Below are positions 1,217 to 63,320 of a stretch of DNA of 64,000 nucleotides, in pieces. Location: assembly GCF_007559335.1 (NCBI RefSeq), contig NZ_VMBG01000003.1, positions 62,001 to 126,000 on the forward strand. Reading direction: 5' to 3'. The notes under the pieces were generated by a model. That model saw nothing but the letters and a program-made list of their open reading frames with translations. It was not told where the DNA came from and did no database searches. The stretch comes from Rariglobus hedericola. GTDB lineage: Bacteria; Verrucomicrobiota; Verrucomicrobiia; Opitutales; Opitutaceae. The position numbers were made by a program, and so were the translations under genes. How positions within the stretch are numbered: position 1 is the first letter of the stretch; each line of letters starts with the position of its first letter.

Positions 1217-1255
1217 TCGCCCGCGTCAGAGTTCCACCCCAACCCCGACCGCACC

Positions 1256-2131: not shown

Positions 2132-2133
2132 TC

Positions 2134-2160
2134 GTCGGCGGCAGGATCTCCGCCGCCGAC
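2134..2160. terminator. Perfect inverted repeat between convergent GH16 and galK
   Basis: Nine-base arms GTCGGCGGC (2134-2142) and GCCGCCGAC (2152-2160) enclose a 9-base loop directly after the GH16 stop. There is no U-run on either strand, so it is a stable hairpin at a convergent junction rather than a canonical intrinsic terminator. It could still act as a 3'-end stabiliser or a bidirectional stop. Confidence 0.45.
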
Positions 2161-2173
2161 CAGTAGCAGCTAC

Positions 2174-3313: not shown

Positions 3314-3380
3314 GAGTGGGTCAGCCGGAATGCCCTGCCCGCCCCCGTGGCGTCAACGGTGTTTCCTTGCCACCAATGGC

Positions 3381-3602
3381 TCACGCCTTTTTCACGCCCT
3401 CGAAGCCGGGAGGCGTCTCGCCCTGCGAACCCTTGGTCACGAGTTGTAGCAGATACGCCATCGCCTCGGTGCGCGCGATACCACGTTGCGCAGCCAACTG
3501 GTCACAACGCTTGATCAACTGATCCGCCATCGTCGCGGCAGCGGCGGAGGTGGGAGCACCCAGCTTCGAGCACAATTGAATGAGTTGTTCGCGCTCGGTC
3601 AT
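3381..3602 (-). CDS. Small conserved-looking protein of unknown function
   Basis: A 73-residue, mainly helical, soluble protein that I do not recognise. Its ATG overlaps the ygfZ stop (ATGA at 3599-3602), which is strong support for a translated, coupled gene rather than a chance frame. It begins TEREQLIQLCSKLG, continues with an alanine-rich helix, and ends in a charged tail. No signal peptide, membrane segment or metal motif is visible. Its position between ygfZ and galK gives no clear functional hint. Confidence 0.7.
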   Translation of the reverse strand: MTEREQLIQLCSKLGAPTSAAAATMADQLIKRCDQLAAQRGIARTEAMAYLLQLVTKGSQGETPPGFEGVKKA

Positions 3603-4525
3603 GGCGTATCGATGAGTTCGATAAATGCATCGCCGGGCTCGGGCGCGAGCGGTTGCGCCGGATCGAGTCCGAGCTTCGTGACCATCGCCAGCCCAATAAA
3701 ACCGCCCGAGCCATCCGCCACCGCCGAGCGCAATTCACCCACGCGTTTCTCGCCCTGCAACAACGCACAGGGAACCGCTGGCACACCGCGCCCCTCCGCA
3801 CGCACCCGCACCAGCCGGCGCCGCACGGTCCCCATGGCCTTGAGACGCGCCATCACTTCCTGCCCCAGATAACAGCCCTTGGTGTAGGAAATACCCACGG
3901 CATCCAGTCCGCCCTCATTCGGCAGATCACCGGACCCGATATCCTGCGGAACCCGCGGCAGACCCGTCGCAATGCGCATCCGCTCCAAATCGTCGGCCGA
4001 CACCTCCACTAATCCTGCCGAAATCCCAACGGTCGATGGCAGCAGCCACTCAAAACTCGTTCCTCCATCACGCCGCCCGCAAAATACCAGGCCGCCACCC
4101 GTCGCACGCACAAACTCGCCTGCCGCCGGCACCGCACCCGCCACCTGCATCAGCCAAGCCTCCGCCTCGGGCCCGCCCACGGCGACACTGTGCCAGTCAG
4201 CCGAGACATCCGTGATGACCACATCATCCGCGATGATGTAAGCCTCGAGCCGCTCGCTAATCACCGCCGCGCTCGACGAAAAGCTGATAATCCAAACACT
4301 ATCAGCCGTTTCCCTAAGCACAAAGCTATCCGCCAAGACCTTCCCTTTTTGGTTAAGCCATAAACCATAAGCCGCAGCCAAGGGAATCGGAGATCTCAAT
4401 TCTTGCGTAAACTGGCCCTGTAAAAAGGATAAGGCATCTTCCCCGGTCACGTGCAGGCATGCGGTCGGCCAGTTGGAGGATTTCCAGGTGATACTGGGGT
4501 CGAAAATTTGACTCATTTTATCCAT
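3599..4525 (-). CDS. ygfZ: Folate-binding YgfZ/GcvT-like protein
   Basis: A 308-residue member of the GcvT-related YgfZ/COG0354 family, whose members use tetrahydrofolate and support iron-sulfur cluster enzymes, including radical SAM enzymes such as MiaB. The diagnostic motif KGCYLGQE lies at 216-223 with the conserved cysteine at 218. An N-terminal GcvT-like domain precedes it (residues 20-110, GEDALSFLQGQFTQEL). Met4 is an alternative start 9 bp downstream. It is first in the leftward operon ygfZ, small protein, galK. A miaB gene is present elsewhere in the window. Confidence 0.92.
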   Translation of the reverse strand: MDKMSQIFDPSITWKSSNWPTACLHVTGEDALSFLQGQFTQELRSPIPLAAAYGLWLNQKGKVLADSFVLRETADSVWIISFSSSAAVISERLEAYIIADDVVITDVSADWHSVAVGGPEAEAWLMQVAGAVPAAGEFVRATGGGLVFCGRRDGGTSFEWLLPSTVGISAGLVEVSADDLERMRIATGLPRVPQDIGSGDLPNEGGLDAVGISYTKGCYLGQEVMARLKAMGTVRRRLVRVRAEGRGVPAVPCALLQGEKRVGELRSAVADGSGGFIGLAMVTKLGLDPAQPLAPEPGDAFIELIDTP

Positions 4526-4576
4526 CTATACCGTAATGTCTTAAAATTTAAACTGAGAGATTCTGATAACTTTTTA

Positions 4577-4620
4577 TTGACCGCCATCGGCCATGCGCTA
4601 GTTCTTATCACGTTAGATTA
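4577..4620 (+). promoter_or_regulatory. Possible promoter region for the DAHP synthase leader
   Basis: TTGACC at 4577-4582 resembles a -35 box in an AT-rich stretch between the divergent ygfZ and DAHP synthase genes. No convincing -10 hexamer is found at 16-18 bp; TAGTTC (4599-4604) is the best spaced and is weak. The assignment is tentative and rests mostly on position. Confidence 0.2.
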
Positions 4621-4668
4621 AAACACTTCTCCTGCCTAGCAGGAGTTTTGGGGTAACTAAGAAAGCAA

Positions 4669-4713
4669 ATGGCCGGTCGCTTAGGGGTAGGCGACCGGCC
4701 AACTTATTTTTAA
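4669..4713 (+). CDS. Candidate leader peptide of DAHP synthase, ending Tyr-Phe-stop
   Basis: A short frame starts at ATG 4669 and reads MAGRLGVGDRPTYF then TAA (4711-4713). A purine stretch AAGAAAG lies a few bases before the ATG and could serve as a weak ribosome-binding site. The last two sense codons are Tyr (TAT, 4705-4707) and Phe (TTT, 4708-4710), end products of the pathway opened by the next gene. The frame spans one stem-loop and ends 17 bases before a terminator, the layout expected of an attenuator leader. Only two aromatic codons are present, fewer than in classical pheA leaders, so translation needs experimental proof. Confidence 0.45.
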   Translation: MAGRLGVGDRPTYF

Positions 4714-4756
4714 AGATCGAACACCGACCGCCGCTTCACATCGAAGCGGTTTTTTT
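4671..4756 (+). promoter_or_regulatory. Attenuator-like leader with two mutually exclusive stems
   Basis: Arm 1 GGCCGGTCGC (4671-4680) pairs perfectly with arm 2 GCGACCGGCC (4691-4700). The core of arm 1, CGGTCG (4674-4679), can instead pair with CGACCG at 4725-4730, and with a one-base bulge the pairing reaches the first two bases of the terminator stem at 4731-4732. A ribosome stalled on the Tyr-Phe codons (4705-4710) would cover arm 2, free arm 1 and favour the alternative pairing over the terminator. This accounts for much of the 329-bp gap 4526-4854. A further small hairpin lies at 4629-4645 (CTCCTG/CAGGAG). Nothing else is recognised in the gap. Confidence 0.5.
4731..4756 (+). terminator. 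Intrinsic terminator upstream of DAHP synthase (attenuator)
   Basis: Stem CCGCTTC (4731-4737) and GAAGCGG (4743-4749) enclose a 5-base loop and are followed by seven T residues (4750-4756). It points toward the DAHP synthase gene and lies about 100 bp before its ATG. No rightward gene upstream needs ending here, because ygfZ is transcribed the other way. That position is the main reason to read it as an attenuator. Confidence 0.8.
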
Positions 4757-4854
4757 GTGCCCCGATTTCCTCACCACCGGTGGCACCCTTGTTAAACACG
4801 GTCCCCGCTGCGCGCTTGCCCTCGGCGCCTGATTTACGTCACGTTCTTCCCTTC

Positions 4855-5910
4855 ATGCACAAGACGTCCGACATCAATGTCGTGGAGACCCGCCCCCTCC
4901 CCTCGCCCGCCCAGCTGCTCGCCGAGCTGCCCAAAACCGAGAGCCAGGCCGATTTCATCACGCGCTCCCGCGACGAAATCAACCGCCTCATCTTCACCAG
5001 CGACCGCCGTTTCCTCCTCGTGATCGGACCTTGCTCGATCCACGACGTCGAAGCCGGCCGCGATTACGCCCGTCGCCTGGCCAAACTCTCCGCCGAGGTC
5101 TCCGACCGCGTCATGATCGTCATGCGCGTCTATTTTGAGAAACCGCGCACCACCGTCGGCTGGAAAGGCCTCGTGATGGATCCGCATCTCGATGGCTCGC
5201 ACGACATCGCCGCCGGCCTGCGCCTCGGTCGCGCCTTTTTGCAGGAAGTCCTCGACCTCGGTCTGCCCACCGCCACCGAGTTCCTCGATCCCATCACGCC
5301 TCAATACATCGCCGACCTCGTGTGCTGGGGCGCCATCGGTGCCCGCACCACCGAGTCGCAAACGCACCGCCAGCTCGCGTCCGGCCTCTCCGCCCCCATC
5401 GGTTTCAAAAACGGCACCGACGGTGGCCTCCAGGTTGCGGTCAACGCCATCAAAGCCGCCTCGCAACCGCAGACGTTCCTCGGCGTTAGCATCGACGGCG
5501 CCGCTTCCGCCATCGTCACCAAAGGCAACCGCAACTGCCACATTGTCCTCCGCGGCGGCTCCGGCGGGCCCAACTACTCCGCCGATCACATCGCCAAGAC
5601 CGAGGCCGCCCTCGCCAAAGGAGGCCTGCCGCCTTCGATCATGGTCGACGCCTCGCACGACAACTCCGCCAAGAAGCCCGAGCTGCAGCCCGAAGTCATC
5701 CGCGCCCTCCTCGCGCAGATCGCCGCCGGCAACACCTCGATCATGGGCGCGATGGTTGAGAGCAACCTCGAGGCCGGCAACCAAGCCTTCCCCCAGCCCA
5801 AGGAAAACCTCCGCTATGGCGTGAGCATCACCGACGGCTGCATCGGCTGGGACACGACCGAGACGATGGTCCGTGAAATCCACGCGGCCCTCGCTCCTCA
5901 CTTCGCTTAA
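4855..5910 (+). CDS. aroG: 3-deoxy-7-phosphoheptulonate synthase, class I (AroF/AroG type)
   Basis: A 351-residue DAHP synthase that condenses phosphoenolpyruvate with erythrose 4-phosphate, the first step of aromatic biosynthesis. ATG 4855 is chosen over an in-frame GTG at 4780 because it gives the family length and aligns with the E. coli AroG N-terminus. GPCSIHD at 58-64 carries the metal-ligand Cys60, KPRTTVGWKG lies at 96-105, and GARTTESQTHRQLASGLS follows. Positions corresponding to E. coli AroG Asp146, Pro150 and Ser180 of the feedback site are conserved, so allosteric inhibition is likely, though Phe versus Tyr specificity cannot be told. The symbol could equally be aroF. The leader suggests additional control by attenuation. 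Confidence 0.93.
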   Translation: MHKTSDINVVETRPLPSPAQLLAELPKTESQADFITRSRDEINRLIFTSDRRFLLVIGPCSIHDVEAGRDYARRLAKLSAEVSDRVMIVMRVYFEKPRTTVGWKGLVMDPHLDGSHDIAAGLRLGRAFLQEVLDLGLPTATEFLDPITPQYIADLVCWGAIGARTTESQTHRQLASGLSAPIGFKNGTDGGLQVAVNAIKAASQPQTFLGVSIDGAASAIVTKGNRNCHIVLRGGSGGPNYSADHIAKTEAALAKGGLPPSIMVDASHDNSAKKPELQPEVIRALLAQIAAGNTSIMGAMVESNLEAGNQAFPQPKENLRYGVSITDGCIGWDTTETMVREIHAALAPHFA

Positions 5911-50035: not shown

Positions 50036-53000
50036 ATGTCTCTCGGTTTTGTCGGACAGCGCTGCGTCAGTGAACGTGAACCCGAACTCGGCCTCGGCCA
50101 GGTCGCCGAGCTCGACCGCACCCGTATCACGGTCGAGTTTCCCGCCACCCGCGAGAAACGCATCTACGCCCGCGGCACGCCCGTCCTGAAACGCGTCCAG
50201 TTCGCCGCCGGCGAATCCGTCGCCCCCCGCACCGGCGCCAAATTCACCATCGCTTCCGTCGAGGAAACCGCCGGCCTCCTCACCTACATCGGCGCCGAGG
50301 GCCAACGCGTCCGCGAAGACGCCATCTCCGACATCACCAGCGTCGCCTCCCCCGCCGAACGCCTCATGGCCGGCCAGGCCGACCCGTCCGAGGTCTTCGA
50401 TCTCCGTCTCCGCGCCCTCCAGGCCGCCAACCGTTTCCGCCAGTCCGAGGTCCGCGGCTTCCTCGGCGGCCGCATCGACCTGATCCCGCACCAGTTCTAC
50501 ATCCTCAACGAGGTATCCAACCGCCAGATACCGCGCGTCCTCCTCGCCGACGAAGTCGGCCTGGGCAAAACCATCGAGGCCTGCTTGATCCTCCAGCGCC
50601 TCCTCGCCACCGGCCGCGCCAAACGCGCCCTCATCCTCGTTCCCGAGTCGCTCACCCACCAGTGGTTCGTCGAACTCCTCCGCCGCTTTAACTTGTGGTT
50701 CACCATTTTCGACGAAGCCCGCTGTCTCGCCGTCGAAGCCTCCGAGCCCGGCAAAAACCCCTTCCTCTCCAGCCAGCTCGGCCTTGCCAGCATCGCCTAC
50801 CTCGCCGGCCCCGACGCCGCCGCTCGCCGCACCCAGGTCATCGAAGCCGGCTGGGATCTCGTCATCGTGGACGAAGCCCACCACCTCGGCTGGACCCCCG
50901 AAGCCGCCAGCCCCGACTACCAGTTCGTCGAGCAACTCGCCCGCAAAGCCCCCGGCCTCCTCCTCCTCACCGCCACGCCCACCCAGCTCGGTCTCGCCGG
51001 ACACTTCGCCCGCCTCCGCCTCCTCGACCCGCATCGCTACGACGACTACGAGACGTTCCTCGACGAGACCGCCGACTTCGGCAAAATCGCCGCCATCGCC
51101 GAAAAGATCGTCGAAAACAGCGCCCTCTCCAACGCCGACCAGAAGACCCTCCGCCAGATCTTCGACCGCGATCCCGAAACCCTCGCCACGCACCTCGCCG
51201 CGCTCGACGCCGGCAAACCCGGCGCCCGCGAAGCCCTCCTCCGCACCTTGCTCGATCAACACGGCACCGGCCGCGTCGTCTTCCGCAACACCCGCGCCGC
51301 GATGACGGGTTTCCCCAAGCGCCAGTATTGCCCCGTCGCGCTCCCCGACGCCACGCCCGCCCTCCTCGCCCGCGTCGCCCGCGAACTCGAAGCCGAAGAA
51401 GCCGCCGCCGAAGCCAGCGCCCACAACGCCAGCCGTATCCAAGGCGCCGCCGCCGCAATCGAAACCGGCCCCATCTCGATCGACTTCTCCGCAGAAGCCG
51501 AAGCCGCCCTCGCCGACGCGTCTTCCGAAGACTCCGACGACTTTAATTCAGGCGAATCCGACAACGTCGTCAGCCCCGACGAAGAACCCTCCGAGGATTC
51601 CGACGACACCCTCGACGACGCGCCCGCCAAACCCACCCGCAAAAAGGCCGCCAAGAAAACCAAAGCCAAGTCCGCCCCCCTCACCGCCTTCCCCAGCGCC
51701 AAGTCCAAATCCAAACCCGTAGCGGCGAGCGTGAGCGAGCCGTCCGCCGCCACCGCCCTCCGCTACACCTACAAAGACGACCCCCGCCTCGACTGGCTCG
51801 TCTCCTTCCTCAAAAAAACCGCGCCCGCCAAAGTCCTCCTCATCTGCCGCTCCGAGCGCAAGGTCCTCGCCCTCGAAGCCGCCATCAAAGAAAAGCACAA
51901 CCTCAACATCGGCCTCTTCCACGAAGGCCTCCCGCTCGTCCAACGCGACCGCCAGGCCGCGTGGTTCGCCGAAAAAGACGGCGCGCAACTCCTCCTCTGC
52001 TCCGAAATCGGCAGCGAAGGCCGCAACTTCCAGTTCGCCCACCACCTCGTCCTCTGGGATCTCCCGCTCAACCCCAGCCTCGTCGAACAACGCATCGGCC
52101 GCCTCGACCGTATCGGCCAAACGGATACCATCAAAATTCACGTTCCCTACCTCGCCGGTGGAGCCGACGCCGCCGTCGCCGAGTGGTATCATTTCGGACT
52201 GAACGCCTTCGAAGCCCCGCTCCACGGCGGCAATGACTACGCCACCGCCTTCCGCACCCGCCTCCTCGAACTCGCCGTGTCCTACGGCGAAGGCAAACTC
52301 AAGAAGACCGCCCGCGCCCAACTCGACGCCTTCATCGCCGAAACCGAAAAATTCCGCGACGAACTCCAGCTGAAGATGAAGCAAGGCCGCGACCGCCTCC
52401 TCGAGTTGAACTCCTTCAACCCCACCGTCGCCCGCCAAGTGATCGACCGCGTCCGCGCCGCCGACGCCGACCCGCTCCTCAAAAAAATCCTCACCGATCT
52501 CTTTGATCACTTCGGGGTGCGCATGAGCGAGCACGAAGACGGCGACGTGAACCTCGACGCCAACCACGCCTACGTCGAAGGCTTCCCGTCCATTCCCCGC
52601 GACGGCATGCTGGCGACTTACAGCCGCAAACGCGCCATCGCGCGCGAAGACATCCGCTTCATCTCCGCCGACCACCCGCTCGTGCAGGACAGCATCGACC
52701 TCCTCGTCGATTCGCCCGCCGGCACCACCAGCTTCTGCGTCCTCGAAGCCGATAAACCCAACCTCCTCCTTGAGGCCGTTTTCGTCCTCGAAGCCGTCGC
52801 CGACGCCAAGTGGCACGTCGACCAATTCCTCGCCCCCACGCCCATCCGCGTGTTGGTCGACATCCACGGCAACGATCTCACCGAAAACGCGCTCTACACC
52901 CGCCTCTCCGCCGACGTCGAAGACGCCCCGCTCCCCCGCTTCCTCGAGCGCCCGGGCTTCAACGGCACGCTCCTCAAAAACCTCGTCGAAGCCGCCAACG

Positions 53001-53236
53001 ACCGAGCGAAAACCCACACGCTCACGCTAAAGAAAGCCGCCCGCGAACGCGCCGCCGCCGTCCTCACGGCCGACCTCCAACGCCTCGTGGATCTCTCCAA
53101 GCTCAACGACAACGTCCGCCCCGAAGAGATCGAGTTGGCCAAAAAACAAGTCCTCCAAGTCCGCACCGCCATCGAAGCCGCCCGTCTCCGCCTCGACAGC
53201 CTCCGCCTGATCGTCGAAGGTGTCGAAATCGACTGA
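50036..53236 (+). CDS. rapA: RapA-like SNF2-family helicase
   Basis: A 1066-residue Swi2/Snf2 ATPase resembling RapA, which recycles RNA polymerase. Residues 1-110 contain two Tudor-like beta-barrels (GQRCVSEREPELGLGQV). The ATPase core has Walker A DEVGLGKT (172-179), DEAH (279-282) and helicase motifs V-VI (GSEGRNFQFAHH, EQRIGRLDRIGQTDTIKI). Between the two RecA-like lobes, at about 480-575, is an insertion that is Asp/Ser-rich and then Lys/Ala/Pro-rich. It is probably disordered and makes the protein about 100 residues longer than E. coli RapA. The C-terminal domain (RapA_C-like) is present. The gene appears monocistronic. Confidence 0.92.
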   Translation: MSLGFVGQRCVSEREPELGLGQVAELDRTRITVEFPATREKRIYARGTPVLKRVQFAAGESVAPRTGAKFTIASVEETAGLLTYIGAEGQRVREDAISDITSVASPAERLMAGQADPSEVFDLRLRALQAANRFRQSEVRGFLGGRIDLIPHQFYILNEVSNRQIPRVLLADEVGLGKTIEACLILQRLLATGRAKRALILVPESLTHQWFVELLRRFNLWFTIFDEARCLAVEASEPGKNPFLSSQLGLASIAYLAGPDAAARRTQVIEAGWDLVIVDEAHHLGWTPEAASPDYQFVEQLARKAPGLLLLTATPTQLGLAGHFARLRLLDPHRYDDYETFLDETADFGKIAAIAEKIVENSALSNADQKTLRQIFDRDPETLATHLAALDAGKPGAREALLRTLLDQHGTGRVVFRNTRAAMTGFPKRQYCPVALPDATPALLARVARELEAEEAAAEASAHNASRIQGAAAAIETGPISIDFSAEAEAALADASSEDSDDFNSGESDNVVSPDEEPSEDSDDTLDDAPAKPTRKKAAKKTKAKSAPLTAFPSAKSKSKPVAASVSEPSAATALRYTYKDDPRLDWLVSFLKKTAPAKVLLICRSERKVLALEAAIKEKHNLNIGLFHEGLPLVQRDRQAAWFAEKDGAQLLLCSEIGSEGRNFQFAHHLVLWDLPLNPSLVEQRIGRLDRIGQTDTIKIHVPYLAGGADAAVAEWYHFGLNAFEAPLHGGNDYATAFRTRLLELAVSYGEGKLKKTARAQLDAFIAETEKFRDELQLKMKQGRDRLLELNSFNPTVARQVIDRVRAADADPLLKKILTDLFDHFGVRMSEHEDGDVNLDANHAYVEGFPSIPRDGMLATYSRKRAIAREDIRFISADHPLVQDSIDLLVDSPAGTTSFCVLEADKPNLLLEAVFVLEAVADAKWHVDQFLAPTPIRVLVDIHGNDLTENALYTRLSADVEDAPLPRFLERPGFNGTLLKNLVEAANDRAKTHTLTLKKAARERAAAVLTADLQRLVDLSKLNDNVRPEEIELAKKQVLQVRTAIEAARLRLDSLRLIVEGVEID

Positions 53237-53275
53237 TGGTGAAACGCACCTTCGCAAGGCGGCGGTGCGCCATCA
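53234..53275. terminator. Two-part hairpin between convergent helicase and HDOD genes
   Basis: The outer arms TGATGG (53234-53239) and CCATCA (53270-53275), and inner arms CGCACC (53245-53250) and GGTGCG (53264-53269), form one stem with a 5-base bulge. It includes the helicase stop codon and ends next to the HDOD stop. There is no strong T-run; it may end or stabilise both transcripts. Confidence 0.5.
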
Positions 53276-53277
53276 AA

Positions 53278-54111
53278 TCACCCCTGAAATGTGCTCATCG
53301 CGATGACCGCTTCTTCACGAATGAGTGTCGCCTCGTCATTTGTGAGCCCGACCGCGACCAGTTTTTCATGCGGGACACCCCACTCGCCATTCTCTCCGGA
53401 AAGTCCGAAGCCCGCGAGACGCACGATGCACTGGGTTAAGTGGAGATTTTTACCGAGCGGCGTCGTCGGCTCCGATAACGATGCGTCGTGACTCACCGCC
53501 TTGACCACCGCGTCGGGAAACTCCCATTCGCGCAGCAACCGGCCCGCGACTTCGTGGTGCGACAGGCCAAATGTGTTTCGCTCCCATTCCGCGAGGTGTC
53601 CATGACCGGCCTCGGGAAATACTTCCGCCGGCCCCAGACTGTCGCGCCCGATGCGATCCAAAAGAATGCATCCAATGCCACCCAGCAGCCCGGCCGTGTA
53701 GGCAAGCCTCGAGTCCATACCCGTGTGTTTGGCGACCCCTTCGGCGACAAGCGCCGTGCACAAACAATGCGCACGAAACGTTTCCGCCCCGTAGCCATAA
53801 CAACGTAGATTCGAGTCGGTGAGAGAGGCATTGGCGACCACGCCCACAAGACGGAACACCTCGGAAAATCCCACGCGCTGCAACGCTTCTTCAATCGTGC
53901 CCAAACCGCCGCCTTTGTAAGCGGGACTGTTGGCAATGCGGATAATCCGGCTGGTGAGCGCGATGTCGCGTTTGAGCAGCGCGGCGATCTCGGTCATGCC
54001 CGAATTAGAATCTAAAAGCATCTTGTGCAGCCGCGCCATGATCTGCGGAGCGGCGGGCAACAACTTGGCCGTGGCGATCAAACGTTCCTCCGACACACAT
54101 GTGATGATCAT
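53278..54111 (-). CDS. HDOD-domain protein
   Basis: A 277-residue HDOD protein, a catalytically inactive relative of HD phosphohydrolases used in signal transduction. The domain covers about residues 12-215: LPAAPQIMARLHKML, ALTSRIIRIANSPAYKGG, TIEEALQRVGFSEVFRL and a later LSHHEVAGRLLREWEFPD. The usual HD metal pair is not evident. HDOD proteins influence motility, biofilm and cyclic-nucleotide signalling. Upstream, the 238 bp to the FKBP gene (54112-54349) is partly AT-rich on the HDOD side and probably carries its promoter. Nothing else is recognised in that gap. Confidence 0.9.
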   Translation of the reverse strand: MIITCVSEERLIATAKLLPAAPQIMARLHKMLLDSNSGMTEIAALLKRDIALTSRIIRIANSPAYKGGGLGTIEEALQRVGFSEVFRLVGVVANASLTDSNLRCYGYGAETFRAHCLCTALVAEGVAKHTGMDSRLAYTAGLLGGIGCILLDRIGRDSLGPAEVFPEAGHGHLAEWERNTFGLSHHEVAGRLLREWEFPDAVVKAVSHDASLSEPTTPLGKNLHLTQCIVRLAGFGLSGENGEWGVPHEKLVAVGLTNDEATLIREEAVIAMSTFQG

Positions 54112-54349
54112 ATCCGAAACTTATCGGCATGATCAGCGCCGACTTCAGTTTTCCTCCCCGATTTTATGACTCTTTTCGGACAAATAATTGAGACACGCAG
54201 GCTGGGCTTTCCCTGAAAAGCTCGCCGCATGCTTTTAAGCGGCACGCCTGCTGGACCTTACTCGACTTGAACGAAAACTCCCGCCTTCAGCGGCCTCGGC
54301 CCCTTCCACTCCAGTGCGAAGGTATCAGCCGAAGCCGCCAGAAAAGGGT

Positions 54350-54973
54350 TTAGCTGACCGAGATCAACTCCACCTCGAACACCAGCACCGAGCCGGCGGG
54401 GATCCCACCTTGGGCTCGGTTGCCGTAGGCAAGCTCGGCAGGGATCGTGAGCTTCCACTTCGAGCCGACTGGCATCAGCTGCAGCGCTTCGACCCAGCCG
54501 GGGATCACGCCGGTGACGGGAAACGAGATCGTCTCACCGCGCTGCACCGAGCTGTCGAACACCGTGCCATCGATCAGCGTGCCGTGGTAGTGCACCTCGA
54601 CGCTCTGGTCCTTAGTGGGCTTCGCGCCTTTGCCTTCAACGAGCACTTCGTATTGCAGACCCGACTCGGTCGTGACGACGCCCTTGCGCGCCTTGTTCTC
54701 GGCGAGAAACGCATTGCCGGCCTCGGCTTGCTTAGCGGCCCCTTGAGCGGCGACCGCCTCGGCACGCTCCTGCGCGGTTTCAAACGCGGCACGCAGCTCC
54801 GGCTCGGACACACGCGACTTCGCGCCGCTCAAACCGTCCTGCAAGCCGACGACAAACGCCGCCAGGTCGATCTCCACGCCGCCCTGCTGGGCGATGTTGC
54901 GGCCCATGTTCATGGCGATGCCGTAGCTGACGCGTTGATCTGCGGTTTGAAGAGAATTATCGGGTGTGGACAT
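54350..54973 (-). CDS. FKBP-type peptidyl-prolyl cis-trans isomerase
   Basis: A 207-residue isomerase of the Mip/FkpA/FklB group. Residues 1-95 form the helical dimerisation arm (SYGIAMNMGRNIAQQGGVEIDL, then an Ala/Glu-rich helix). Residues 100-207 are the FKBP domain: VEVHYHGTLIDGTVFDSS, FPVTGVIPGWVEALQLMPVG and IPAELAYGNRAQGGIPAGS. No signal peptide is present when ATG 54973 is used, which suggests a cytoplasmic FklB-like enzyme; 23 extra codons upstream do not form a convincing signal. It lies about 120 bp downstream of the carbonic anhydrase-chemoreceptor gene on the same strand. Confidence 0.92.
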   Translation of the reverse strand: MSTPDNSLQTADQRVSYGIAMNMGRNIAQQGGVEIDLAAFVVGLQDGLSGAKSRVSEPELRAAFETAQERAEAVAAQGAAKQAEAGNAFLAENKARKGVVTTESGLQYEVLVEGKGAKPTKDQSVEVHYHGTLIDGTVFDSSVQRGETISFPVTGVIPGWVEALQLMPVGSKWKLTIPAELAYGNRAQGGIPAGSVLVFEVELISVS

Positions 54974-55092
54974 GGCGGGTTGGGTTGGCAGGTGGGTTGA
55001 AAAAATTACCCGCCACCCAAAGCGACCGTCCACAAAGCGCAATCCCTGTCTGCGGTTTTCAGGTCCGTCGTGAAACCCGTGCTGGGACTGCC

Positions 55093-57474
55093 TTATGCAG
55101 GCTGTCCCGAGGCACGAGCGCCCACCGGCCGGACGCTCTTGGAAGCCCGCTTCGAATCCGTGCGCACACCGGTCAGAACCTGCAACTGCACAACCGCCTC
55201 CTGCAACATCACCGACTGGCCGTTGAGCTCCTCCGCCGCCGCGGCGGTTTCCTCCGCGCTTCCCGCATTGGACTGCGTCACTTGATCCATCTGCGAAACC
55301 GCGGTGGAGACCTGGGCAATGCCTGTGCTTTGTTCGTCGGAAGCTCCGGCAATTTCAGCCACCAGCGTATCCAGCTGTTGGATGAGTGCATGGATATCCT
55401 TGAAGCTGGCCGCTACCGTGGCGCTGATTTCCGCGCCCTGCCTGCTCTTGGCGACGGAAGCCTCGATCTTGGCGGATGTTTCCCTGGCGGCGACGGCTGA
55501 TCGCTGGGCCAGCGCGCGAACCTCCTCGGCCACCACCGCAAAACCGGCTCCATGCTCACCGGCGCGCGCGGCCTCCACGGCCGCGTTGAGGGCGAGGATA
55601 TTGGTCTGAAATGCGATTTCATCGATCGTCTTCAGAATCTTGGTAATGTCCTCGGATGCCGATTTGATCGCCTCCATCGATTCCAGCATGACCTGCATCT
55701 GGCCGGTGCCCGCCACTGCGGATTCCCGGGCGGCAGTCGCGACGGATTTCACCTTCTGCGAGCCCTCCGCATTGCGTTTGGTCATCGATGAAAGCTCCTC
55801 GAGTGAAGCCGACGTTTGCTCAAGCGAAGCCGCCTGTTCACTCGCGCCTTCAGCCAAAGCCTGACTGGCGGCCGAAACCTGGCCTGCCGCCGCCGCCGTC
55901 TGGTCGGCACCAGCGCCCAGCGAGCGCACCAGATGCCCCAGGGGTCCCGTGATGCTGCGTGCGATTATGAGCGCCAGTCCGGCACCCAGCATGACGGCCG
56001 CGACACCGAGCCAGACCACGGTTGACTGGGTGTGCTTTAATTCCGCCGCCATACGCGGACCATCCTGATTTTGCTGGGCGATAAATTCCTCGGCGAGATC
56101 GGTAACTTCGAGATCAATCACCGATCCCAACAGGCCCATGCGCCGGTTGATTTCCATGACCGCGGTTGTGCGGCCGGCCAGTGCCGCCGCTTTTAACTCA
56201 AGCTGCAAAGACGCATGCTTGCCCACTTCCTCTTCGATTACTCGCAGTCTTTGACGGCTCGCCGGAGCTTCAATCAACGCATCCGCTTTTCGGATAAACT
56301 CCATGAGTTTAGTCTTATGTTGATCGTAGCGGGCGGATGCCTCGGGCGTGCGTAAGATCACCAGATCCTTGGCCGCGATACGCATCTCCAAATATTCAGT
56401 CGTGATCTCTCCAACCAGAACGCTGCGCCGTGCGTCTCCCCGGTAGTTGGTGAAATCCAACAAGGCCGTGTGGAGGCTGTAATAACTTTCGGCGGCCAGC
56501 CCCGCGAGCACGAGCAACACACAGGAAAAACCCGCGCTCAAACGGGCGTTGATCGTCCATGCCTGCATTCCCCTGATCGAGTAACGGTAAATTGCGAACA
56601 ACAGAAGGGCGAGCGCCAGCACCCCTGCACCAATTGAAACATAACCCAGTGAAGTTGCGTGTTCCGCCGAAACCGGCGTGGACGCAGGCACCTCATGTCC
56701 GGCAGCATCCACAGAACCCGCATGCGCACCTGCGGGTGCGGCTTCATGCCCGATCTCATTCGCTTCGTGTCCGGCTCCTCCCGTGGAAGCCAGCAAGCGG
56801 GCTTGATCGGGATGCTCTCCGTGCCACTGGATGGCGCCGGTGGAGAGATCGTAAACGGCCCCGACCACCTTGAGTTTTCCCGCCTTCACGAGATCACGGA
56901 CGGTCGCGCTGTTTTCAAAAATATCCTCGATCGAATGCCAGACGTTGCCATCCACGGCCTTCGATAAAAAGTCCGCTCCGGACAAACCTGGATTTTCTGC
57001 GTGCGCCTTTTCGACTGCAGGCACGATCGGTTCGACAAGCTGCTGAATGCTGCCGTGGACCTGCGCATGCTCGGCCACCGCTTTGACCGCGCCGCACGAG
57101 CTGTGCCCGAGAAACACCAGGAGCGTGGAGCCCAGATGTCCGGTGCCGTATTCGATGGAGCCGAGTTCATCGGGTTTCGCGACATTGCCGGCGACCCGCA
57201 CCACAAAAAGATCGCCGACGCCCTGGTCGAAAATCGCCTCGGGCGGCACGCGTGAATCCGAACACGTAAGGATCGTTGCGAACGGCGCCTGCCCTCCGGC
57301 CACTTCGATTCTGCGCGCCGCTGTTTGATGCGGATGAATCGTTTTTTCCGCGGCAAAACGCAGATTGCCTTCACGCAGATTTTGCAGGGCCACGTCAGGC
57401 TCCACGGCGGTGGGCGCAGCCACGGCAATACCCAGCGACATCAATATGAGAGCGGTCAAACGGAGGGCATTCAT
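55093..57474 (-). CDS. Beta-carbonic anhydrase fused to a methyl-accepting chemotaxis protein
   Basis: A 793-residue chimera. A signal peptide (1-20) leads to a beta-carbonic anhydrase domain (about 25-225) with zinc ligands C71, H124 and C127 and the D73/R75 dyad (CSDSR; GHSSC). A linker with five histidines (236, 243, 251, 260, 272) precedes TM1 (277-298) and TM2 (about 313-332). A helical periplasmic 4HB-like region (to about 480) and TM3 (484-507) follow. The cytoplasmic part has little HAMP sequence and a full signalling hairpin ([20 protein letters not shown], near 618-637). The predicted topology places the anhydrase in the periplasm. CO2, bicarbonate or local pH sensing is inference. 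ATG 57474 starts the signal peptide cleanly. No che genes are in the window. Confidence 0.93.
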
Positions 57475-57613
57475 AGGAAGGAGTGGGGCACAGACACGCG
57501 GCCACAACGGTCACATGAGATGCCTCTTAATCGGTCTCCCTTCCCAAAGCTTTAAACTCCGCACGCCGGAAACCGCTCCAGCCATCCTTCGCTGGCCGGC
57601 AAACCTGCCTCTA

Positions 57614-58309
57614 TTAAACCGGCTTGGGCGTGAACCGCGCCGCCACAAGCCAGCAGGCCACCGCCCAGGCCGTGCCCGCACTCCAGCCCGCCAGCACATC
57701 CGTCGGATAATGCACGCCGAGAAACACCCGGCTCAGCCCGATCATAAACGTCAGGAAAAACGCCACGCTCACAAAATAGATTTTCTCGCGCCGACGGTCC
57801 GAGGCCTGGGCCAGCAACGCCCCCAGCGTCAGATAAACCAGCGACGACAACATCGAGTGTCCGCTCGGGAAACTCGCCGAATGCACCTGCGACAGATGCG
57901 GCACGATGTCCGGCCGCGCGCGGTCAAACGACATCTTCAACACGTTGCTCAACACATACCCGCCCGCCACCGTTCCCGCGATCAAGGCCACGCGTCCCCA
58001 CTGGCGGCGCATCGCCAGGTAGCCGATCACGAGCAGCGACAACGTGATTACCACCACCGCACCGCCGACCGCGCTCACGTCCCGGCCCACTTCCACCAGC
58101 CACAATGGCCCCGCCGGCACACCGGGATTTTCGGGACTGCGCAACATCCGCATGAAGCGCGTCTCCGTCTCCAGATGAGTTTCATGCCTCACCACGCTCG
58201 CCACATGGATGAACAACCACACGCCGAGACACAGCGCCGCCACGCTCGCGAACAACACAAACTCATTCCAGCCGGCGTTTTTCCAATAGGTCTTCCAACG
58301 GGATATCAT
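57614..58309 (-). CDS. PAP2-family membrane phosphatase
   Basis: A 231-residue membrane phosphatase with about six helices. The three PAP2 motifs are present: KMSFDRARP, PSGHS, and SRVFLGVHYPTD, the last holding the catalytic His. Members dephosphorylate phosphatidic acid, phosphatidylglycerophosphate or undecaprenyl pyrophosphate. ATG 58309 (MISRWKTY) is used, since 31 further upstream codons are Arg/Cys-rich and non-membrane. It is divergent from a diacylglycerol-kinase-like gene, so the two may act in opposite directions on lipid phosphorylation; that pairing is inference. Confidence 0.9.
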   Translation of the reverse strand: MISRWKTYWKNAGWNEFVLFASVAALCLGVWLFIHVASVVRHETHLETETRFMRMLRSPENPGVPAGPLWLVEVGRDVSAVGGAVVVITLSLLVIGYLAMRRQWGRVALIAGTVAGGYVLSNVLKMSFDRARPDIVPHLSQVHSASFPSGHSMLSSLVYLTLGALLAQASDRRREKIYFVSVAFFLTFMIGLSRVFLGVHYPTDVLAGWSAGTAWAVACWLVAARFTPKPV

Positions 58310-58428
58310 GCGGCGGATGCAAACAGCTCCTCCAGTCCGTCGACAAGCCCGCTCACACTTAAAATCACACGCAACCAACCGCCCGTCCGCCGGTCGGCTC
58401 ATGCAGACACGCCCGTCACCCGCACCGC

Positions 58429-59346
58429 ATGAAATTCATCGTCATCCTCAACAGCAAAGCCGGCACCGCCGCCAAAGGCTCCGAAGAGCTGGCGCCGGAT
58501 GCCCTGCGCACCGCTTTTTCCGAAGCGGGGGCCGAGGCCGATGTGCGCGCGGTCACTCCCGACCAGATCGAAGCCACGCTTCGCGAAGCCGTCTCCACGC
58601 GTCCCGATGCCGTGATCATCGGCGGCGGCGACGGCACGGTGCGCAGCGCCGCGGGCTTGCTGGCCGGCACGGGTATTGCCCTTGGCGTGCTTCCGCTGGG
58701 CACGCTCAATCACTTCGCCAAAGACCTCAAAATTCCCCCCACCGTGAAAGACGCCATCGCAGTCTTCGCAGCGGGTGTTGTGCGCGAGGTCGATGTCGGC
58801 GAGGTCAACGGCCATGTGTTCATCAACAACTGTTCCCTCGGTTCCTATGCCGAGGCCGTCCGCCGCCGCGACGCATTGCGTGACACCCACGGCCACGGCA
58901 AATGGCCGGCGATGATCCGCGCGTCGTTTCAAGTTTTCCGACGCCTGCGTCGCATGCACCTGCGATTCACCTCCGCCGATGGAAAATCCCGCTCCGTGCG
59001 CACGCCGGTCGTGGTGATCGCCAACAACCGCTACTCCGGTCACGTGCTCGATAAAACCATGCGCGCCCGTCTCGATGAGGGCCATCTCTGGCTCTACACC
59101 GCGCATGTTCACCGCCACCTCGCCGCGCTGCGTCTCGCGCTTCAATCCTTGGTGCGCCGGCTCGACGAAGCCGATGCACTCGCCTCCGAAGCCGTCACTG
59201 AAATCACCATCGCCAGCGAACGCGGTCCGCTGCCCGTCGCCATGGATGGCGAACCGGTCGAGCTGCCGAGCCCGCTGCATTTTCGCATACGGCCGCGCGC
59301 ACTGCGGGTGCTCGTGCCGCGCGATGAACGGAACGGGCAGACATGA
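58429..59346 (+). CDS. Diacylglycerol kinase-like lipid kinase
   Basis: A 305-residue soluble protein of the DAGK catalytic family (YegS/DgkB-like). Nucleotide binding is marked by ILNSKAGTAAKG at residues 5-16 and by GGGDGTVRSAAGLLAG (about 65-80), then LGVLPLGTLNHFAKDL. The C-terminal sandwich has VVIANNRYSG and AMDGEPVELPSP, the latter a conserved DGE metal-site segment. It likely phosphorylates diacylglycerol or a similar lipid. It is translationally coupled to the metallophosphoesterase gene (ATGA, 59343-59346). Confidence 0.92.
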   Translation: MKFIVILNSKAGTAAKGSEELAPDALRTAFSEAGAEADVRAVTPDQIEATLREAVSTRPDAVIIGGGDGTVRSAAGLLAGTGIALGVLPLGTLNHFAKDLKIPPTVKDAIAVFAAGVVREVDVGEVNGHVFINNCSLGSYAEAVRRRDALRDTHGHGKWPAMIRASFQVFRRLRRMHLRFTSADGKSRSVRTPVVVIANNRYSGHVLDKTMRARLDEGHLWLYTAHVHRHLAALRLALQSLVRRLDEADALASEAVTEITIASERGPLPVAMDGEPVELPSPLHFRIRPRALRVLVPRDERNGQT

Positions 59347-60194
59347 AAACCATCGCTCACATTTCCGATCTCCACTTCGGCACCGAGCGTCCGGAGATCG
59401 CCGCCGCGTTGCAGGCGGAACTGCACGCACTCGCACCGGCGCTGGTCGTGGTCAGCGGAGATCTTACCCAACGCGCCCGCAGCGGCCAATTCATCGCCGC
59501 GCGCGATTACCTCGCCACGTTGCCCGGTCCGCAGCTCGTCGTCCCCGGCAATCACGACGTGCCGCTTTACGATGTCGCCCGGCGGTTTCTGGCACCACTC
59601 GCACGCTACCGGCATTTCATCAACGACGACCTGAATCCCGTTTACGACGACGGCGATTTGTTCGTCGGTGGACTCAACACCGCGCGTTCGCTCACGTGGA
59701 AAAGCGGACGCATCTCGCTCGACCAAATCGAAAATCTCCAGGCTCGACTGCGCTCCTCCTCCGCACGTTTCAAAGTCGTGGTGACACACCATCCGTTTAT
59801 CCCGCCTCCGTCAAAAGGCTCGCCCGATGCGCGCATCGATCTGGTTGGTCGCGCCGCGCGTGCGCTCACGATTCTCGATTCGGACAAAGTGGATCTGCTC
59901 CTCGCCGGACACCTGCATCACAGCTACTCGGGCGACACGCGCACGCACTACCCCGCCGCGCACCGCGCCATCATTTCTGCGCAAGCCGGCACCGCGATTT
60001 CCAGCCGTGTGCGCGCCGGAGATCCCAACGGCTACAACCGCATCACGCTCGACGGAGACACCATTACCATCGAAGTGCGCACTTGGCGCGACGGGGCATT
60101 TTCCCCGCTGAATTGCATGACCTATCACCGTCATGAAACGGGCTGGAGCGCAGCCCACGAAGCGCGGCCAAACCCGCTCAGCTGCCAAAAATAG
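59343..60194 (+). CDS. Calcineurin-like metallophosphoesterase
   Basis: A 283-residue dinuclear metallophosphoesterase. All motifs are present: SDLHFG, SGDLTQRA, VPGNHD, THHPF and GHLHHS. The family includes cyclic-AMP phosphodiesterase CpdA-like enzymes and UDP-diacylglucosamine hydrolases; the RaraN-like spacing here fits the CpdA/Icc group best, but the substrate is not set. It is coupled to the lipid kinase gene, so a phospholipid or sugar-phosphate substrate is also possible. Its last 17 bp overlap the convergent response regulator gene. Confidence 0.9.
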   Translation: MKTIAHISDLHFGTERPEIAAALQAELHALAPALVVVSGDLTQRARSGQFIAARDYLATLPGPQLVVPGNHDVPLYDVARRFLAPLARYRHFINDDLNPVYDDGDLFVGGLNTARSLTWKSGRISLDQIENLQARLRSSSARFKVVVTHHPFIPPPSKGSPDARIDLVGRAARALTILDSDKVDLLLAGHLHHSYSGDTRTHYPAAHRAIISAQAGTAISSRVRAGDPNGYNRITLDGDTITIEVRTWRDGAFSPLNCMTYHRHETGWSAAHEARPNPLSCQK

Positions 60195-60573
60195 TCGCGA
60201 GGTGCGCGGTCAACAAGGGCTTCACCAGGTAGCCTTGAGCTCCGGCTTTTTCCGCGCGTTGCTGGTCGCTCATTTCCGCCGATGAGGTGAGCACATACAC
60301 TTTCAAATCACGCAAGGCCGGCTCCGCCCGCAGCCACTCTAACACTTCGTGTCCGGTGAATTCCGGCATCTTCAAATCAAGCAGGACGACTTCCGGCAGC
60401 GGATAACGCGTGCGGTCGGCATAGTCGCCCTTGCCGGCCAGATAATCCATCGCCTGCCGGCCATCGGCCACATGAAACACCGGAGCGATCCCCGCCTTAG
60501 CCAAGACGCGCTTGGAAAGGAAAAGATCATCATCGTTATCCTCGGCGAGGAGAACTGCGACTGGAGGCTTCAT
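60178..60573 (-). CDS. Single-domain response regulator
   Basis: A 131-residue receiver with no output domain, of the Rcp1/CheY-like type. Acidic residues EDNDDD lie at 11-16, phosphoacceptor D66 in LLDLKMPEF, Thr in VLTSSAE, and Lys in GYLVKPL. ATG 60573 is the first start with a complete beta-1 strand. It is third in the leftward kaiC-like/kinase/regulator operon, 72 bp after the kinase gene, and is the natural phosphorylation target of that kinase. With no output domain it must act by protein contact or phosphorelay. Confidence 0.92.
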   Translation of the reverse strand: MKPPVAVLLAEDNDDDLFLSKRVLAKAGIAPVFHVADGRQAMDYLAGKGDYADRTRYPLPEVVLLDLKMPEFTGHEVLEWLRAEPALRDLKVYVLTSSAEMSDQQRAEKAGAQGYLVKPLLTAHLATIFGS

Positions 60574-60645
60574 GAGCCGCCCAGAGAGGAAACAGTTGTT
60601 CACAACGTCAACCTTACAACTTAACAGCCGCCAGCCCAAGCCACG

Positions 60646-61812
60646 CTAATCCGCCTTCGCCAGTTCCAGCCAGAAGCGCGCGCCTTGCCCCGGTGCCGAC
60701 TCCACGCCGACCGATCCCCCCATGCGTTCGGCCGCCTTCTTGACGATAGCCAGGCCGATGCCCGTGCCCTCCACCTGCTTGTGGGCGGCACCCCGTTCAA
60801 ACATCCCGAATATGCGCTGCTGTTGAGAGAGATCGATTCCCATGCCTTGGTCAGCGACGGTCACACGGATGCGATCGCCGCGCGTGACCGCATAAATTTC
60901 CACATGCGGCACCACACCTTCGCGCTTAAACTTCAGAGCGTTCTCCAACAGGTTCGAAAAACACTGGATGAGCGAAGGTCCGTGCCCAAGCACCGCACCC
61001 AGCGGAGCCTGCAGGTGGATCAGATGTTTCGATGCGATGAGCGAGGGGTATTGCTCGATTACTTCGCGCAACATCACCTCCAGATCCACCGGTTCCAGCG
61101 TGAGCTCTCCCCGGGAAACCCGCGTATAGGCGAGCACATCCTGGGTGAGACGGTCCATGCGATGCGCTGTGCGCGAGATGCGCGCCAGCAAATCCTTCGC
61201 CCCCGGCTCCAGCGTGGCACCGTAATCCTCGATCAACGCCTGCGCATACCCGTCGAGCACGCGCAAGGGTGCCCGCAGGTCATGCGACACGCTGTAGGAA
61301 AACGCCTCCAGTTCCTCGACCATCTGCTGCAGCTTGGTCGTGCGTTCGACCACCCGTTCTTCGAGGGACGCGAGCAGCGTCTCGCGGTCCGCCAGCAGGT
61401 CGCGGATCTCGTATTGCCGGCTGCGGGCTCGCAACGCCGTCTTGAGCGTGGCCACCAGCGTCGAGGCGCGCAGCGGACGCTCGATCAGCGTGAGGTTGGC
61501 CCGTGCTCCCACCAGCGCGGTCGCCCGCGTGCTCACCGGGCTGAACTGTCCGCCGGAGGTAATCAAGACCACCGGCACATCCGACCAGGTCGCCTGCCGC
61601 TCCAGCTGCGCCGAGAACAACCCGGCCTGCGCCGAGTCCATCGCCTCCTCCGTGATCAGGAGCGCCGCGCAACCCGCGCGAAACTCCTCCGCCGCCATCG
61701 CCAAGTCGCGGCACACCCGCGTGTCGATGCCCGCCGCGGCCAGCACTTCCGCGATATTGCGTGCATCGGCCCCCAGGGGAGCCGTGATCAACACTCGTTT
61801 TTCTATATTCAC
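60646..61812 (-). CDS. Histidine kinase with N-terminal pseudo-receiver
   Basis: A 388-residue soluble kinase. Residues 4-125 have a receiver-like fold, but the phosphoacceptor position reads LLITEEAM without Asp, so it is a pseudo-receiver. A coiled coil (132-170) leads to HisKA with H177 (SVSHDLRAPLRVLDG) and an HATPase domain with NLLENALKFKRE, DQGMGID and EGTGIGLAIVKKA. It resembles the phytochrome-type kinases paired with Rcp1-like regulators. It starts 14 bp after the kaiC-like gene. In cyanobacteria the clock kinase CikA also carries a pseudo-receiver, but at its C-terminus. Confidence 0.92.
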   Translation of the reverse strand: MNIEKRVLITAPLGADARNIAEVLAAAGIDTRVCRDLAMAAEEFRAGCAALLITEEAMDSAQAGLFSAQLERQATWSDVPVVLITSGGQFSPVSTRATALVGARANLTLIERPLRASTLVATLKTALRARSRQYEIRDLLADRETLLASLEERVVERTTKLQQMVEELEAFSYSVSHDLRAPLRVLDGYAQALIEDYGATLEPGAKDLLARISRTAHRMDRLTQDVLAYTRVSRGELTLEPVDLEVMLREVIEQYPSLIASKHLIHLQAPLGAVLGHGPSLIQCFSNLLENALKFKREGVVPHVEIYAVTRGDRIRVTVADQGMGIDLSQQQRIFGMFERGAAHKQVEGTGIGLAIVKKAAERMGGSVGVESAPGQGARFWLELAKAD

Positions 61813-61826
61813 GATATTGATACAAT

Positions 61827-63320
61827 CTAGTGCTCGGGAAGCATGTCGGATGATTTGCCCTCGAAGGTCGGCACACCGGTCAGCACGCCGTGGAATTTCT
61901 CCAGCGGCTCGCCCACGCGGATGCCGTTCTGGTCGAACTTGAATTCACGGATGAAGTCCTCGTGCGAGCCCATGCGTTTTTTCACCACGGAGATCGCCTT
62001 GCGGATGCGGCCCTCCTGCTCGAAGTAGCGCAGCAGCATCACAGTGTCGGCCAGATACGTGAGGTCGATCGGCGTGTTCATCTGGCCCACGATGCCGTGC
62101 TGCGCCACCGTCATGAGCGACACCACGCCGTGGCGGCTGAAGAACGACAGCAGCTCGTGCAGCTGGATGTTAAGGAACTTCACGTTGGGCATCGCCTGCA
62201 GGTAGCTGTTGAGACTGTCGATGACCACGAGGCGCACCCCCTCTTTCTGAACCCGCTGCTTGAGGCGGTGGACGAACTCGCCAGGCGTCAGTTCGACGGG
62301 GTCCACCTGCATGATCTCGATCATGCCCGAATCCACGTATTGCCGCACCGGGATTTTGATCAGCTCCGCGCGCTCGAACAGCGTGTGCGCCGTCTCTTCG
62401 AACAGGCACAACGTCACCTTTTCGCCACGCGCCGCCGTGTTGACCACAAACTGAAGCGCGATGGTGGACTTGCCCGTGCCCGCCGGCCCCAGCAGCAGGC
62501 AGCTCGTGCCGTAATCCAGTCCGCCACCCACCAGGGAATCCAGTTCGGCAATGCCCGAACTGATCCTGCCGGGCTTGAACGACGCCTCATGGTCCGAGGC
62601 AACCAGGCGAGGAAACACGGTCACGCCTCCTTGCACGATCGCGGCGTCATGAAAACCTCCGACAAAATTCACTCCGCGCAGCTTGTTGATTTTCACCCGC
62701 CGGCGCTCGGCACCGTAATCGGAGGCCAGCTGCTCGATGGTGATCACGCCGTGCGCGATGCTTTGCACGTGGAGGTCGCCGCCGCCTTCGCCCGCCGCAT
62801 GGTCGTCCAGCACCATGACGGTCACATCGCGCTGGCTGAAAAATTGTTTCAACGCCAGCATCTGCCGGCGGTAGCGAAACGGGGTGTCCGACAACAGCCG
62901 CAGCTCCGAAAGCGAGTCGATCACCAGCCGCTTCGGTTTCACATCTTCGATCCGCTTGAGAATAATGTCCGTGGTCTTGTTAAGTTCGATTTCCGAAGGA
63001 TGAAAAACCGTGTTCTGCGCCTCATGCGCGAGTTGGTGCTCGAGTGCCGATAACTCAAAAATATCGAGCCCCGAAAGATCCCAATGGTGCGAAGCCGCGA
63101 CCGCGTTGATCTCATCCCGCGTTTCAGAAAGCGTGATGTAGAGCCCCTTTTCCCCGAGCCGGATACCTTGGAGCAAAAACTGGAGTGCCAGGGTGGTTTT
63201 GCCCACGCCGGGATCGCCCTTCAACAGATACAGCCGGTTGAGCGGAAGCCCTCCTTTAAGAATCTCGTCCAGACCTTCGATTCCTGTGGGGCAATTGTGC
63301 GGTTCGTGCGTGGAGTTCAT
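61827..63320 (-). CDS. KaiC-like double-domain ATPase
   Basis: A 497-residue RecA-superfamily protein with two KaiC domains. P-loops are GDPGVGKT (35-42) and GPAGTGKS (278-285); Walker B-type strands are RLVIDSLSEL (131-140) and RLVVIDSLNSY. Length and architecture match KaiC (519 in cyanobacteria), but kaiA and kaiB are absent, and the KaiC Ser-Thr autophosphorylation pair cannot be assigned with confidence. Such stand-alone KaiC homologues occur widely with histidine kinases, and this one heads an operon with a kinase and a response regulator. Clock function should not be assumed; light, redox or stress signalling is equally likely. Confidence 0.9.
   Translation of the reverse strand: MNSTHEPHNCPTGIEGLDEILKGGLPLNRLYLLKGDPGVGKTTLALQFLLQGIRLGEKGLYITLSETRDEINAVAASHHWDLSGLDIFELSALEHQLAHEAQNTVFHPSEIELNKTTDIILKRIEDVKPKRLVIDSLSELRLLSDTPFRYRRQMLALKQFFSQRDVTVMVLDDHAAGEGGGDLHVQSIAHGVITIEQLASDYGAERRRVKINKLRGVNFVGGFHDAAIVQGGVTVFPRLVASDHEASFKPGRISSGIAELDSLVGGGLDYGTSCLLLGPAGTGKSTIALQFVVNTAARGEKVTLCLFEETAHTLFERAELIKIPVRQYVDSGMIEIMQVDPVELTPGEFVHRLKQRVQKEGVRLVVIDSLNSYLQAMPNVKFLNIQLHELLSFFSRHGVVSLMTVAQHGIVGQMNTPIDLTYLADTVMLLRYFEQEGRIRKAISVVKKRMGSHEDFIREFKFDQNGIRVGEPLEKFHGVLTGVPTFEGKSSDMLPEH

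Follow-up and report, generated by a model that had tools for sequence, protein, structure and literature searches.

The window, a stretch of 64,000 nucleotides of the Rariglobus hedericola genome, carries a gene that joins a carbonic anhydrase (CA) domain to the signaling part of a chemoreceptor of the MCP type (Table 1). The coding strand reads without a single internal stop, while the frame translated from the plus strand over 55093-57474 contains stops. The first-pass annotation of this DNA, made from the letters alone, described one unbroken frame at these coordinates; the coordinates are right, and the strand is added here. No clear Shine-Dalgarno sequence lies ahead of the ATG in window positions 57475-57524 (minus strand), and a promoter scan returned one match where 0.9 would be expected.

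Table 1. Parts of the CA-MCP fusion gene, with window positions and protein residues
Feature	Window positions	Strand	Residues	Basis and remarks
CA-MCP fusion gene	55093..57474	minus	793 aa + stop	ATG at 57474, stop ends at 55093
Putative signal peptide (hydropathy peak 6-24)	57415..57474	minus	1-20	predicted from hydropathy only
Beta-carbonic anhydrase domain, predicted to be exported; C71, H124, C127, D73/R75	56809..57402	minus	25-222	Pfam and alignment
Ala/His-rich linker, 5 His	56659..56808	minus	223-272	composition
Membrane helix (peak 277-295) and short positively charged loop, probably cytoplasmic	56563..56658	minus	273-304	hydropathy; topology inferred
Membrane helix (peak 308-326)	56491..56562	minus	305-328	hydropathy
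Helical bundle, probably periplasmic	56029..56490	minus	329-482	structure model, pLDDT 79-92 for 351-460
Membrane helix (peak 486-504) and neck, without HAMP	55855..56028	minus	483-540	hydropathy, Pfam
MCP kinase-control hairpin	55150..55854	minus	541-775	Pfam, alignment

Pfam finds Pro_CA at residues 66-214 (E = 9e-39; 133.7 bits against a cut-off of 25.7) and MCPsignal at residues 578-733 (E = 1.3e-42; 146 bits against a cut-off of 34.6), and at E-values up to 0.1 it matches nothing else in the protein, neither HAMP nor a sensor, Cache, SulP or 4HB domain. The MCP hairpin, described from the letters as complete, is thus confirmed by Pfam, but the HAMP relay is missing; such a relay is usual in MCPs, not universal. 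The four hydropathy peaks fit a signal peptide and three membrane helices, which bears out the earlier outline of a signal peptide, two helices, a helical periplasmic region and a third helix. Since the loop joining the first two membrane helices is Arg-rich it is assigned to the cytoplasm, and the predicted topology puts the hairpin on the same side as the loop, leaving the CA and the helical region periplasmic.

The receptor half is akin to MCPs with four-helix-bundle sensors (Tsr/Tar, PcaY_PP and MCP2201 type). Residues 506-787 align with residues 254-537 of E. coli MCP I, and a structure model renders the bundle as long helices with a weak resemblance, at E-values of 0.1 and above in a fold-level comparison, to solved helical sensors such as Vc1313 and PcaY_PP. 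(The model was built from a six-sequence alignment and has a mean pLDDT of 55; its CA part falls mostly below 50, is unreliable and was therefore not used for the active site.) Unlike those MCPs, the window protein has an exported enzyme and an extra membrane helix in front, and has neither HAMP nor a 4HB match in Pfam. The 4HB_MCP_1 domain does score 36.7 bits in one of the related fusions (G209); in the window protein the likeness is at fold level and weak.

Genome searches yield at least 16 uninterrupted CA-MCP frames, that of the window included, 14 of them whole at both ends. Within the Opitutaceae, with four (rarely five) places scored per genome, 10 of 252 genomes, that of the window included, hold an uninterrupted frame running from CA to hairpin, eight of these being whole at both ends. 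One (G246) is truncated at its start by a contig end that falls inside the signal peptide, and another (G095, L082:263-2764) has a UPF0029 piece after residue 714 in place of the last part of the hairpin, so that its C-terminus is probably an assembly chimera. Because the frame recurs in nine other genomes of the family, a chance join is excluded. An eleventh family CA-MCP (G242, L143:8048-10165) has its start cut by a contig end and contains one in-frame TAG; it is either a pseudogene or the product of a sequence error.

Identity between the window protein and the nine other family fusions is 55-72% in the CA, 44-72% in the MCP part and 18-55% in the helical region, the bundle being the least conserved folded part. 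Four family genomes (G214, G070, G056 and G160) encode homologues without CA; these still have the signal peptide and the extra membrane helix, together with a short linker. The one from the window's own genus (G214), a close relative of the window's receptor, retains a short stretch resembling the start of a CA, which suggests that the CA was lost there.

The first-pass annotation proposed a search for the same architecture and its phylogenetic spread, and the search, run on genomes, finds it in the family and in other phyla; a one-off fusion is thereby ruled out. Among the best-scoring matches in a sample of 387 Verrucomicrobiota genomes, fusions occur only in G000, G048 and G050, all Opitutaceae (a 794-aa frame in G430 was left out). 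Hydrogenedentota contribute at least three fusions in 68 genomes, one with the same layout as the window protein (G652) and two with the CA inserted within the helical sensor (G603 and G657), which in G603 is of the HBM type by Pfam. At least two fusions occur in 392 genomes of Planctomycetota (G864 and G804), with a signal peptide, CA, membrane helices, HAMP and an MCP hairpin, and at least one (G1505) among 247 genomes from the phylum to which the MAG L005 belongs (Myxococcota in NCBI). HAMP is present in all three of G864, G804 and G1505. Among the matches listed for 349 genomes from the phylum that includes Variovorax L044 there is no fusion, and the sole frame longer than 600 aa is a SulP-CA by eye. 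The counts beyond Opitutaceae are lower bounds, drawn from best-scoring matches with part of the long frames opened; most Planctomycetota frames between about 757 and 824 aa are presumed to be SulP-CA. Two CA-MCPs, at L274:386-3223 and L305:4099-7155, combine HAMP, the canonical relay, with long His-containing linkers.

SulP transporter-CA fusions, met in Verrucomicrobiota and Planctomycetota genomes, likewise carry a related CA domain on a membrane protein. Their CA is C-terminal and they have no MCP, whereas the window protein has no SulP; by the usual topology of such proteins, their CA would be cytoplasmic. Ten candidates proved to be of this kind by eye (G463, G472, G521, G421, G418, G953, G974, G695, G733 and G1363), and in the two that were scanned, G418 and G733, Pfam confirms Sulfate_transp plus Pro_CA. 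Six further long frames (G932, G302, G287, G262, G541 and G1473) were rejected for having no MCP.

A maximum-likelihood tree of 81 CA domains does not gather the fusions together. Forcing the CAs of 15 of the 16 fusions into one clade costs 173 log-likelihood units and is rejected (AU p = 1.5e-37), and well-supported branches force at least four changes of fusion label. In the first tree of CA domains, the four SulP-CA rows included form a clade of their own (support 100/99). Tested separately, A+B as a clade (p = 0.32) and C+D as a clade (p = 0.38) are not rejected, and group A, the ten family rows, is not one clade in the best 81-row or 80-row tree, although its being one is not rejected either (p = 0.48). 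The later 80-row tree, which includes G1505, needs eight label changes, three of them forced by well-supported branches, with the bootstrap unsettled. (Left out were 12 CA rows before the first tree, namely a duplicate of L010 and eleven distant ones, a further seven cytoplasmic rows before the 81-domain tree, and 22 rows of far groups before the 80-row tree.) One ancient join followed by losses could also produce non-monophyly, but is disfavored because CA and MCP similarities disagree: G652 shares 70% with G1505 in the CA and 39% in the region round the MCP tip, against 49% and 80%, respectively, with G603. More than one joining event is probable, perhaps between two and six (not exactly six), so that a CA seems useful as part of a receptor.

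The CA domain itself looks intact. The zinc ligands C71, H124 and C127 and the dyad D73/R75 all stand where the earlier reading put them, the motifs CxDxR and HxxC are kept in 16 of 16 fusions, and these five residues are among 52 CA columns invariant in an alignment of 11 fusions. Nei-Gojobori dN/dS, computed for six pairs drawn from eight family fusions, lies between 0.10 and 0.20 in the CA and between 0.08 and 0.25 in the hairpin, as compared with 0.26-1.14 for the bundle and 0.38-1.08 for the linker in the five computable pairs (the sixth is saturated for both). The CA is under purifying selection like the hairpin and unlike the bundle. The active-site residues, the predicted export and the selective constraint together suggest a functional CA. 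With the exported beta-CAs (Pro_CA; PRK15219) and Rv3588c it has in common the fold family and all catalytic residues; standalone exported beta-CAs, unlike the window protein, carry no receptor. A whole-protein score of 146.8 against the NCBIfam model PRK15219 for exported CAs, below the curated cut-off of 221, suggests a CA related to that family but not to be filed in it. Its closest solved structure is 2A5V/1YM3 (Rv3588c), whose zinc site is reported to be pH-switching (PMC6834203). Type II CAs are described as having little or no activity under about pH 8 (PMC7287614). A 427-aa frame with two tandem CA domains and a hydrophobic start lies at L283:4207-5487 in another genome (G786).

The first-pass annotation would have given up its proposal had the genome contained no che genes. 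In fact the window genome (4.15 Mb in 16 contigs) holds 11 MCP hairpins and five CheW-domain places, two of which belong to CheA proteins that also carry Hpt and ATPase domains. Pfam also identifies a cluster with FliF, MotA, FlgK, CheR, CheB, CheD, an MCP and CheW, and the partners CheA, CheW, CheR and CheB are accordingly all present. CheW directly adjoins 4 of the 16 fusions, with gaps of 2-4 bases on the same strand in G050, G044 and G048 and on both sides in G652. In G047 a same-strand CheW sits about 1 kb upstream of the fusion, probably separated from it by one small gene; in G657 the genes run CheW, MCP, CA-MCP, with the fusion 2.4 kb from CheW. No CheW was found near the other 10: nine were examined by tblastn of their flanks, several of them short, with one CheW query at E = 1e-4, which may miss divergent CheW, and in the window genome the CheW places are on other contigs. 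A PAS/GAF hybrid histidine kinase follows CheW in G050 and G044 and lies downstream on the same strand in G047. The CA-less homologue of G160 adjoins genes that by eye resemble fliF, cheR, cheB and cheD.

In two Hydrogenedentota genomes (L277:582-3233 and L278:2752-5432) the CA-MCP stands in a same-strand row with CheW and a CA-less MCP. The fusions of L083, L085, L084, L086, L087, L089, L277, L278 and L010 have a Phe at or near the C-terminus, often in an acidic setting (DEFFK, DDDMKGF), and such tails are perhaps tethers for CheR, CheB or CheD. No such tail is seen in the window protein.

The five His residues reported for the linker are there, 5 in 50 residues compared with 2.3% His in the rest of the protein (p = 0.006). 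Across the 16 fusions single p values run from 0.001 to 0.41, with six above 0.05 (G209, G193, G603, G657, G652 and G864). Combining one row for each of six designs gives a Fisher p of 3e-6, design B being represented by the better of its two rows (G657, not G603). CA-less homologues have 0-1 His at the linker position, its limits roughly set. The enrichment is modest but recurrent. Zinc binding or supply, buffering, or a shape change set by pH are guesses at what the linker might do.

The window protein is most readily understood as a CheA-coupled receptor with a CA input, to which we give a probability of about 0.85. That the stimulus is inorganic carbon (CO2 or bicarbonate) or the linked pH is a further step, which we favor with appreciably less assurance. 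The points in favor of a receptor with this stimulus are the shared frame, the motifs kept in every fusion, the recurrence, the probable repeated joining, the constraint on the CA, the adjoining CheW genes, the che and flagellar genes of the genome, and the reported pH switch in the zinc site of the nearest solved CA. The exported beta-CA would be the input module, sitting in the periplasm at the end of what may be a long, flexible tether and informing CheA and the flagella about CO2, bicarbonate or the associated pH. MCPs function as dimers, as do beta-CAs, so a CA dimer may be positioned above a receptor dimer. Whether the zinc site is open or closed, and whether it has bicarbonate bound, would be read by the nearby helical bundle through proximity or docking, and the bundle would relay the signal across the membrane to the hairpin. 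Transmission in this manner is doubtful as a specific proposal, albeit likelier than an effect of altered bulk periplasmic chemistry.

The step from the tethered CA to the poorly conserved bundle is the weakest of the mechanism. The bundle must carry the signal yet is the least conserved folded part, where a fixed docking site predicts otherwise, and a linker of 50 residues, probably flexible, makes direct mechanical coupling hard. The four CA-less family homologues mean that the receptor can do without the CA. Also against the receptor reading are the position of the window gene away from che genes, the 10 of 16 fusions with no CheW found near them, and the small share of family genomes (10 of 252) that carry a fusion. 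A broader proposal is less likely than not: a recurrent class of enzyme-headed chemoreceptors may have been built separately in several phyla, with the CA zinc site as ligand site and its open or closed state, governed by bicarbonate or pH, read by a helical sensor via a flexible His-containing tether, which would make these proteins dedicated receptors for CO2/bicarbonate taxis.

A rather unlikely alternative, the best of those considered, makes the tethered CA a chemical amplifier: it would speed up hydration at the receptor, the bundle would sense the bicarbonate or protons made, and the His linker would be a local buffer or proton antenna. The catalytic motifs kept in all 16 fusions and the His enrichment across separate designs agree with this, as does the slowness of uncatalyzed hydration relative to run times (half-time about 19 s). 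The quantities are less kind to it. By our own estimate, with assumed kinetics, constants and cell size, the share of diffusing CO2 that 500-5000 enzymes could process is 0.3-3%, and a single enzyme would raise bicarbonate at 2-10 nm by 4 nM to 1.8 uM over 10 uM to 1 mM CO2, that is, by at most 1.8 uM even with 1 mM CO2. Given such small turnover and so small a rise, the periplasm as a whole is unlikely to be altered, and we prefer a direct readout of the zinc site or detection over nanometers. The same figure, at most about 3%, weakens the earlier suggestion of a receptor responding to a pH shift that its own enzyme produces.

Less likely still, the CA is cargo, the receptor serving to fix an exported CA that the cell needs to the membrane or the pole while the bundle senses an unrelated ligand. 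Only two Pro_CA places were found in the window genome, and the second (C4:10848, 242 aa) has no signal peptide visible by eye; CA-less homologues also suit this explanation. A plain membrane anchor would suffice for the purpose, however, and the repeated use of a full MCP is left unexplained. The hairpin is constrained as strongly as the CA, and a CheW gene directly adjoins 4 of the 16 fusions. G048 and G050, moreover, hold another, standalone CA that is a good match to the fusion-CA profile. A receptor for zinc or another metal, which would bind the metal through its His linker and CA zinc site and drive metal taxis, is improbable: the His content of the window linker speaks for it, but six of the 16 fusions show no significant enrichment singly, dN/dS in five of six pairs indicates loose constraint on the linker, and the full catalytic set invariant in the 11 aligned fusions includes D73/R75, unneeded for metal storage. 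That faulty annotation or assembly brought a CA gene and an MCP gene together has a negligible chance, for although the chimeric look of G095 shows that false joins can occur in such assemblies, the identical CA-to-hairpin join in 10 family genomes refutes it for Opitutaceae, and CA-MCP joins occur in other phyla as well.

To our knowledge, bacterial sensing of CO2 or bicarbonate for taxis is poorly known. A receptor with a known active site offers a direct handle on it, in that mutation of a zinc ligand can be tied to signaling; if the receptor reading with a CA input is true, a whole enzyme can serve as chemoreceptor input, and the join was made several times in evolution. For comparison, the Helicobacter pylori receptor TlpA is reported as a receptor for bicarbonate, arginine and acid (PMC8406319, PMC5245789), and one of these papers notes that bicarbonate as such and the basic pH have not clearly been told apart as its stimulus (PMC5245789). 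TlpA has a dCache sensor, whereas Pfam finds no Cache domain in the window protein, and the term "carbonic anhydrase" is absent from the main text of both papers. In agreement with the first-pass annotation, which knew of no receptor of this design, we found no description of a CA-headed chemoreceptor in the open-licence PMC literature as judged by title and start of abstract; domain databases may list the architecture. The CA-MCP fusion is real and recurrent and, within the literature searched, undescribed; its sequence contains an MCP hairpin as well as a beta-CA domain, and its design is new among chemoreceptors so far as that search goes.

None of the nine neighbors scanned around the window gene, from 50036 to 63320, is a che gene; they encode a RapA-like helicase, HDOD, FKBP, PAP2, diacylglycerol-kinase-like and phosphoesterase proteins, a response regulator, a histidine kinase and a KaiC-like protein. 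When 13 window genes were compared with relatives, the gene order shared besides the fusion came to HDOD in G246 and scattered response-regulator and kinase matches. The response regulator, histidine kinase and double KaiC-like ATPase lie side by side on the minus strand at window positions 60181-63320. The HDOD gene is found downstream of the fusion both in the window (53278-54111) and in G246 (L139:2891-3754), with 35% identity between the two.
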